32,526 nucleotides of DNA from a bacterium (GTDB taxonomy: Bacteria > Patescibacteriota > JABMPQ01 > JAUVWW01). Positions 18,373 through 19,182 of this stretch are shown here, piece after piece. The stretch is taken from assembly GCA_030603885.1 (NCBI GenBank), contig JAUVWW010000003.1, positions 77,223 through 109,748 on the forward strand. The letters are read 5' to 3'. The translations under genes and the position numbers were made by a program. Under the pieces are notes generated by a model, which ran no database searches, had not been told where the DNA came from, and saw only the letters and a program-made list of their open reading frames with translations. Numbering within the stretch: position 1 is the stretch's first letter; every line of letters starts with the position of its first letter.

Positions 18373-18921
18373 TTAGAAACTTTCTTCGAAGGCTTCCTCA
18401 TCAGCCTCAGACCATTCTTGAAGCTGTTCTTCTTCTCTCTTTAAAATCTCATCCCACATGGAGGAGTTTTGAGAAGTTAAGGCTATAACCTTGCTTTTAA
18501 AATTGGTATTAAATTCAGCCAAAGCTTTTTTACTTTTTTTAAAAATCTTAACTAGATCTTCAAGTGCCTTTTCAGGTAATATGGGCAAAAATACCAAAAG
18601 ATCATTCTGATCGATTAAAGGAATGGTAGATTGAGAAATTAAATTTTTAAGTTCTTCTAGGAGAGGAAAGTCTTCTTCTTGATAGTATTTTTGAACCAAT
18701 TTTTTGGTGTGAGGAATATTTTTTCCGGTGGTATCTTCACTTTTTGAAGCAGCAGAAAAGCTAGCTGCCTTTAGCCGGGCGATAAAGCCCTCAATAATTT
18801 TTTTTAGACTTGGAGTTTTGCCAGCCCCCTGATATTGATCCGAAGTTTCCATTTCTCTTTTGATGGAGTTTTCCACAAACTGTTCTCTAATTTCTTTGAT
18901 TGGTTCTTTTTCAATTTTCAT
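18373..18921 (-). CDS. Conserved-style hypothetical protein, acidic C-terminus
   Basis: ORF starting at internal ATG (18921), since the listed start overlaps the tRNA gene; no recognised family. Confidence 0.6.
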   Translation of the reverse strand: MKIEKEPIKEIREQFVENSIKREMETSDQYQGAGKTPSLKKIIEGFIARLKAASFSAASKSEDTTGKNIPHTKKLVQKYYQEEDFPLLEELKNLISQSTIPLIDQNDLLVFLPILPEKALEDLVKIFKKSKKALAEFNTNFKSKVIALTSQNSSMWDEILKREEEQLQEWSEADEEAFEESF

Positions 18922-18927
18922 AAAAAT

Positions 18928-19002
18928 TGGTACCAGGGGTGGGAATTGAACCCACGACATGAGGCTTATGAGTCCTCCGCTCTACCACTGAGCTACCCTG
19001 GC
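18928..19002 (-). tRNA. tRNA with CAT anticodon (elongator Met or Ile2), CCA encoded
   Basis: GCCAGGG TA GCTC AGTGGTA GAGC G GAGGA CTCATAA GCCTC ATGTC GTGGG TTCAATT CCCAC CCCTGGT A CCA. Confidence 0.9.
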
Positions 19003-19003
19003 T

Positions 19004-19078
19004 TGGTTGCGGGGGTAGGATTTGCACCTACGACCTCGAGGTTATGGGCCTCGCGAGCTACTACTGCTCCACCCCGCT
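19004..19078 (-). tRNA. Initiator tRNA-fMet (CAT), CCA encoded, atypical
   Basis: AGCGGGG TG GAGC AGTAGTA GCTC G CGAGG CCCATAA CCTCG AGGTC GTAGG TGCAAAT CCTAC CCCCGCA ACCA; A1xA72 mismatch and A11:U24 fit a bacterial initiator. Confidence 0.87.
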
Positions 19079-19182
19079 TTGTGAACGCCATTTGGCGATT
19101 TCATTATATACTATAACTTGAAATAATGCAAGGTTTTTGGTAAAATAGATTTAAAAGCAGTTTATAAGTTTATTAAATTAAC

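Follow-up and report, generated by a model that had tools for sequence, protein, structure and literature searches.

A18 and G55 in place of G18 and U55 at the elbow of initiator tRNAs from Patescibacteria and phages

Positions 18 and 55 of initiator tRNAs were found to form one unit with two states, G18/U55 or A18/G55, and nearly no intermediates. The second state was observed in an initiator tRNA gene of a Patescibacteria genome, located in the 32,526-nucleotide stretch of DNA analysed here (the window). As 18 and 55 nearly always change together, A18/G55 looks like an alternative working fold and not like damage.

The initiator gene and its genome

The host genome (825 kb in 12 contigs, 99.3% complete) has 46 tRNA genes according to Rfam. 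In the window, ARAGORN and Rfam identified three tRNAs, namely Asp, elongator Met and the initiator. The features of the two Met tRNAs are given below, with the evidence in brackets.

19004..19078, minus strand: initiator tRNA-fMet(CAU) gene, sole copy by tRNA gene count, CCA encoded (ARAGORN; Rfam RF00005, 55 bits; cloverleaf fold)
19062, minus strand: A18 replacing G18, in the D-loop AGTAGTA at 19059-19065 (sequence; changes together with G55 in relatives and phages)
19061, minus strand: G19, conserved, partner of C56 (sequence)
19022..19026, minus strand: U54-G55-C56-A57-A58, T-loop fitting UGNRA, with G55 at 19025, C56 at 19024 and A58 at 19022 (sequence; motif in PMC2258182)
19047, minus strand: C33 replacing U33, anticodon loop CCCATAA (sequence; independent of the elbow change)
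19044..19046, minus strand: CAU anticodon (ARAGORN, sequence)
19039..19051, minus strand: A29 (19051) paired with U41 (19039); initiator G:C pairs left are 30:40 and 31:39, two of three (sequence)
18928..19002, minus strand: elongator tRNA-Met(CAU) with U33, G18G19 and T-loop TTCAATT, all canonical; in-genome control (ARAGORN, Rfam)

Read base by base on the minus strand, the initiator gene consists of AGCGGGG TG GAGC AGTAGTA GCTC G CGAGG CCCATAA CCTCG AGGTC GTAGG TGCAAAT CCTAC CCCCGCA ACCA. RNA folding gave a perfect cloverleaf (-29.7 kcal/mol, z = -2.4). Among the features of bacterial initiators, the CAU anticodon with an unpaired A1xA72 is present, as is a purine 11 : pyrimidine 24 pair in the form of A11:U24. 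The original prediction had called an initiator from these features, in agreement with ARAGORN, Rfam (RF00005, 55 bits) and the base reading, and its readings of C33, G55, A18 and A29:U41 were all correct, as was its description of the neighbouring CAT tRNA at 18928..19002 as canonical, with U33, GG and TTC. The D-loop had also been described as lacking the GG pair, which holds for G18, changed to A18, but not for G19, which is intact together with its partner C56. The elbow has the bases of the canonical G19-C56 and U54-A58 pairs, and G18-Psi55 is absent.

A Met-tRNA formyltransferase is encoded in the genome (PF02911 match, E 4e-31). A search for a second, canonical initiator tRNA, as suggested in the original prediction, found none among the 46 tRNA genes (Rfam, 99.3% complete genome). 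Since the CAT anticodon occurs in two tRNA genes only, both inside the window, the gene at 19004..19078 is, judged by its sequence, the genuine and sole initiator tRNA of the genome.

The changes at 18, 55, 33 and 29:41 had been listed together, and they were compared with the state of related genomes. C33, which replaces the U of the U33-turn, was present in 3 of 20 variant and 14 of 88 canonical Patescibacteria initiators (Fisher p = 1), and was therefore ruled out as part of the elbow change. The three initiator G:C pairs 29:41, 30:40 and 31:39 are incomplete here at A29:U41. In the canonical Patescibacteria initiators this is the commonest state of the pair (50/88), so it was rejected as a special feature, and with G29:C41 in only 22 of 88 it is no bar to membership among the initiators of the phylum. 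As C33 is uncoupled from 18/55 and A29:U41 is commonest in the phylum, the four changes do not form a single event. C33 is also present in eukaryotic initiators (PMC9023262, PMC7912444), and replacement of U by C in a U-turn is reported to be tolerated in the neomycin riboswitch (PMC6061696).

Other observations were made at this locus and in the same genome. A 93-codon open frame on the plus strand (window 18835-19116) runs antisense to both Met tRNAs and resembles the spurious proteins that annotation often places over tRNAs. For AUA decoding, a tRNA-Ile(UAU) is present (L009 4109-4184), with no third, lysidine-type CAT tRNA. An extra tRNA-like gene (L003 248-317, G000:C1:43147-43215; 42.7 bits) has a short anticodon loop, TTCTAA, possibly with CUA or CU as its anticodon, and may be suppressor-like or degenerate.

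Coupling of positions 18 and 55

Among 110 distinct Patescibacteria initiators, 88 were G18/U55, 22 were A18/G55 and none was mixed. The original prediction had proposed a coordinated loss of G18 and U55; the coordination is strict, but the change is a swap to A18-G55 and not a loss. Because part of this set had been recovered through G55, the coupling was retested from the other side, with A18 fixed and position 55 free. Matches were obtained in 25 of 289 genomes, four of which were discarded as chance matches; G55 was present in all of the real initiators (21/21), and two new variant initiators with a 4-base variable region were added. In G011, G174 and G149, what matched the G55 pattern was not a tRNA and was rejected. 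Initiators with A55 or C55 were found in none of 144 genomes. The union of the G55 and A18 searches placed A18/G55 in about 34 of 289 Patescibacteria genomes (12%) from 18 families, a tally that includes genomes in which position 18 is less certain (aberrant D-arm, families f34 and f58) and L075, of which the 5' exon was not recovered.

Both forms of the elbow coexist within families f38, f46 and f50. The f46 pair of L079 (variant) and L152 (canonical) is identical except at four bases (18, 20, 55 and 57), which favours a paired change in place over import. U54, C56, A58 and G19 are kept in A18/G55 initiators, with a purine at 57; within Patescibacteria this was A57 in 20/20 variants, compared to 25/88 canonical initiators. 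From these comparisons, A18/G55 appears to have had several origins among Patescibacteria initiators and one or more further origins in the tRNA-His of the host genome.

In family f38 (L041, L042 and L048) there are clusters of three CAT tRNAs, and one GGGCC...CAT tRNA adjoins the variant initiator. Initiator genes with G55 are split by introns in L075, L076, L087, L089 and L090 (genomes G154, G071, G280, G201 and G246), with intron ends that fit U33/C34 insertion, and group I introns were called by Rfam in those of L075, L076 and L087.

Across bacteria, 85,462 GTDB species were scanned with a G55-initiator pattern that fixes a 5-base variable region, which gave at least 115 records. The matches listed contained 95 distinct G55 initiators, of which 92 had A18, two had G18 and one, from Clostridiales (AGCCAGGTA), was ambiguous and readable either way at position 18. 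Both G18/G55 cases were in MAGs: in the genome of L180 this tRNA also occurs with U55, and L291 is elongator-like. Among the matches listed, the named relatives with the variant were mostly Patescibacteria, i.e. the Candidate Phyla Radiation (Andersen-, Kaiser-, Adler-, Kerfeld-, Zambryski-, Nomura-, Falkow-, Uhr-, Kazan- and Saccharibacteria), with a minority from Alphaproteobacteria, Planctomycetes, Bacteroidota and others. L219 and L224 are examples from Saccharibacteria. The larger genomes outside Patescibacteria mostly have a canonical initiator as well, with the variant as an extra copy. Two of the copies examined are located near phage replication genes (DnaB-like helicase and RuvC-like, L249) or an integrase (L193).

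The strongest single result was obtained from 2.9 million viral contigs, scanned for the four combinations in one identical frame with the 5-base variable region fixed. A18/G55 was found at least 109 times and G18/U55 at least 115 times, compared to one case of A18/U55 (the initiator-like tRNA L583) and none of G18/G55. The two states are thus discrete, and combinations between them are all but absent (Fisher p about 4e-65, kinship ignored). Among the matches listed, A18 was present in 92/92 distinct viral G55 initiators, and GG in 106 of 113 viral U55 matches. The seven U55 matches without GG were rejected as intermediates, six being partial tRNA copies and the other, L520, having a mismatched acceptor stem. 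Viral variants use G57 besides A57, and all fit U-G-N-R-A.

Extra A18/G55 initiators are carried by phages and prophage-like regions (L249, L193 and viral contigs such as L350-L456). When the variant consensus was compared to named phages using BLAST, mostly canonical initiators were retrieved, and A18/G55 was present in one of nine examined, Phage CBW1004C-Prop1. In this phage the initiator-like tRNA (L581 1001-1076) is unannotated and has the anticodon loop TTCATAC. Comparison with the initiators of relatives, as recommended in the original prediction, and with those of viruses shows A18 with G55 recurring in dozens of species and more than 100 viral contigs. Intermediates are nearly absent, and this is more than chance.

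The change had been considered specific to the initiator, and this was contradicted by other tRNAs. A18/G55 was also present in the tRNA-His of the same genome (L012 276-349, minus strand; G000:C2:18677-18748; D-loop AACAGTTA, T-loop TGCAATT), in a tRNA-Cys in L250 (AGTAGCTA / TGCAAAT) and in an elongator-like CAT tRNA in L078, so initiators are enriched for the swap and not unique. G55 occurred only in His and Cys among 161 distinct non-Met tRNAs sampled, both with A18. The A18/G55 pattern in tRNA-His was found in no other of the 144 Patescibacteria genomes searched and was ruled out as a lineage trait; the other match, in G106, was not tRNA-like by its letters. An effect on the use of TruB had been anticipated as well. 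The catalytic domain of TruB is encoded in the host genome and U55 is kept in 44 of its 46 tRNAs, so loss of the enzyme was ruled out, and any such effect would be confined to the A18/G55 tRNAs, which are without its target. The effects on IF or P-site selection and on start-codon choice that had also been suggested are speculative.

Proposed fold of the elbow and alternative explanations

Canonical elbows have residue 18 inserted between 57 and 58, and G18-Psi55 is a one-hydrogen-bond pair adjoining G19-C56 (PMC4810234). In UGNRA triloops elsewhere, the G often pairs with an A that lies outside the loop, resulting in a composite GNRA fold (PMC2258182). The variant initiators have both U-G-N-R-A and an outside A that covaries with the G. 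We infer that their T-loop, U54-G55-C56-R57-A58, represents the T-loop motif of rRNA and riboswitches in its UGNRA form. A18 of the D-loop would enter the gap between 57 and 58 and form a sheared-type pair with G55, and G55-C56-R57-A18 would then make up a composite GNRA fold that substitutes for G18-Psi55. As the L-shape and the flat G19-C56 face would be kept, the variant should be acceptable to the ribosome and to other readers of the elbow. With G in place of U the Psi55 target is lost directly, and both TruB and any Gm18 methylase would be left without a target base in an A18/G55 tRNA. The gene most probably encodes a functional initiator tRNA in which an alternative tertiary pair forms the elbow; the covariation was observed, and the geometry is deduced from knowledge of the motif. 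The bypass of EF-Tu and of A-site entry may loosen the constraint on the elbow, which may account for the enrichment in initiators.

If this constraint were relaxed altogether, since an initiator neither binds EF-Tu nor passes through the A site, both elbow partners could have decayed with no 18-55 contact. G55 is far commoner in initiators than in the other tRNAs sampled, as relaxation would predict, but decay would yield many combinations, whereas A18/G55 alone was found, and neither A55 nor C55 occurred in 144 genomes. Viral intermediates amount to one against at least 100 for the matched states, and U54, C56, A58 and G19 are all kept, so we regard relaxed decay as very unlikely. A degenerate extra copy or an assembly error, with a canonical initiator elsewhere, is extremely improbable. 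The variant does sit beside a canonical initiator as an extra in alphaproteobacterial and other large genomes, but here it is the sole initiator of a 99.3% complete genome and its cloverleaf is perfect. Assembly error is rejected because dozens of independent assemblies show these bases too. Overall, a pseudogene, an assembly error and relaxed decay are each excluded or improbable.

The abundance of A18/G55 initiators in viral contigs, and the location of alphaproteobacterial extra copies in prophage-like DNA (DnaB-like helicase and RuvC-like in L249, integrase in L193), would also fit a spread by phages, from which Patescibacteria gained theirs by replacement. However, outside 18, 55 and 57 the Patescibacteria variants resemble their own canonical relatives (four differences between L079 and L152), and the tRNA-His of the host genome changed likewise, which points to evolution in place; import therefore seems quite improbable to us. 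Alternatively, the swap may have been selected because an enzyme that reads the elbow, either one that makes Psi55 or Gm18 or a nuclease that targets tRNAs, would no longer recognise the tRNA, with the phage copies acting as resistant initiators during infection. Their frequent carriage by phages is consistent with such an escape, and PMC10264068 proposes that phage tRNAs evade tRNA-targeting defences via anticodon-loop mutations. In Patescibacteria, on the other hand, the variant is the sole chromosomal copy, and we consider selected escape unlikely. The preferred reading of an alternative working elbow can be widened to a second discrete elbow solution, the A18-G55 composite GNRA, which would have had many origins in Patescibacteria and phage initiators, made Psi55 unnecessary and been selected, e.g. 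as an escape from an elbow-reading enzyme. This wider proposal is tentative, and we hold it to be possible rather than probable.

Comparison with known systems and significance

The gene shares with the canonical bacterial initiator (E. coli type) CAU, the 1x72 mismatch, A11:U24, G30:C40, G31:C39, the CCA end, U54-A58 and G19-C56. It differs in having A18/G55 for G18/Psi55, C33 for U33 and A29:U41 for G29:C41. U-G-C-A-A, the U-A closing pair, the G in second position and an outside A are in common with the UGNRA T-loop, or lonepair triloop, of rRNA and the TPP riboswitch (PMC2258182); here the outside A would be residue 18 of the tRNA D-loop, in a pair replacing G18-Psi55. Eukaryotic initiators (PMC9023262, PMC7912444) likewise have C33, but in these the change lies at 54-58 (A54-A58) and G18G19 and Psi55 are kept, whereas here U54 is kept and 18/55 are changed.

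No description of A18/G55, of G55 or of an elbow variant in CPR initiators was found in the open-access literature, subscription journals being outside the scope of the search. G55 is also present in the T-loop of the staphylococcal non-proteinogenic tRNA-Gly of cell-wall synthesis (GUGC instead of GTPsiC), which is without both G18 and G19 and is withdrawn from translation. The two have G55 in common, whereas the present tRNA retains G19 and is, by the tRNA gene count, the sole initiator.

Models for annotation and structure that are built on G18-U55 will score A18/G55 initiators wrongly. As a clean, two-state natural replacement, A18/G55 suggests that a different pair can be used to build the elbow, and that the tRNA elbow can reach the UGNRA T-loop chemistry of rRNA and riboswitches. 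It also tests the need for Psi55 and TruB, and would provide a comparative handle on the requirements specific to initiators.
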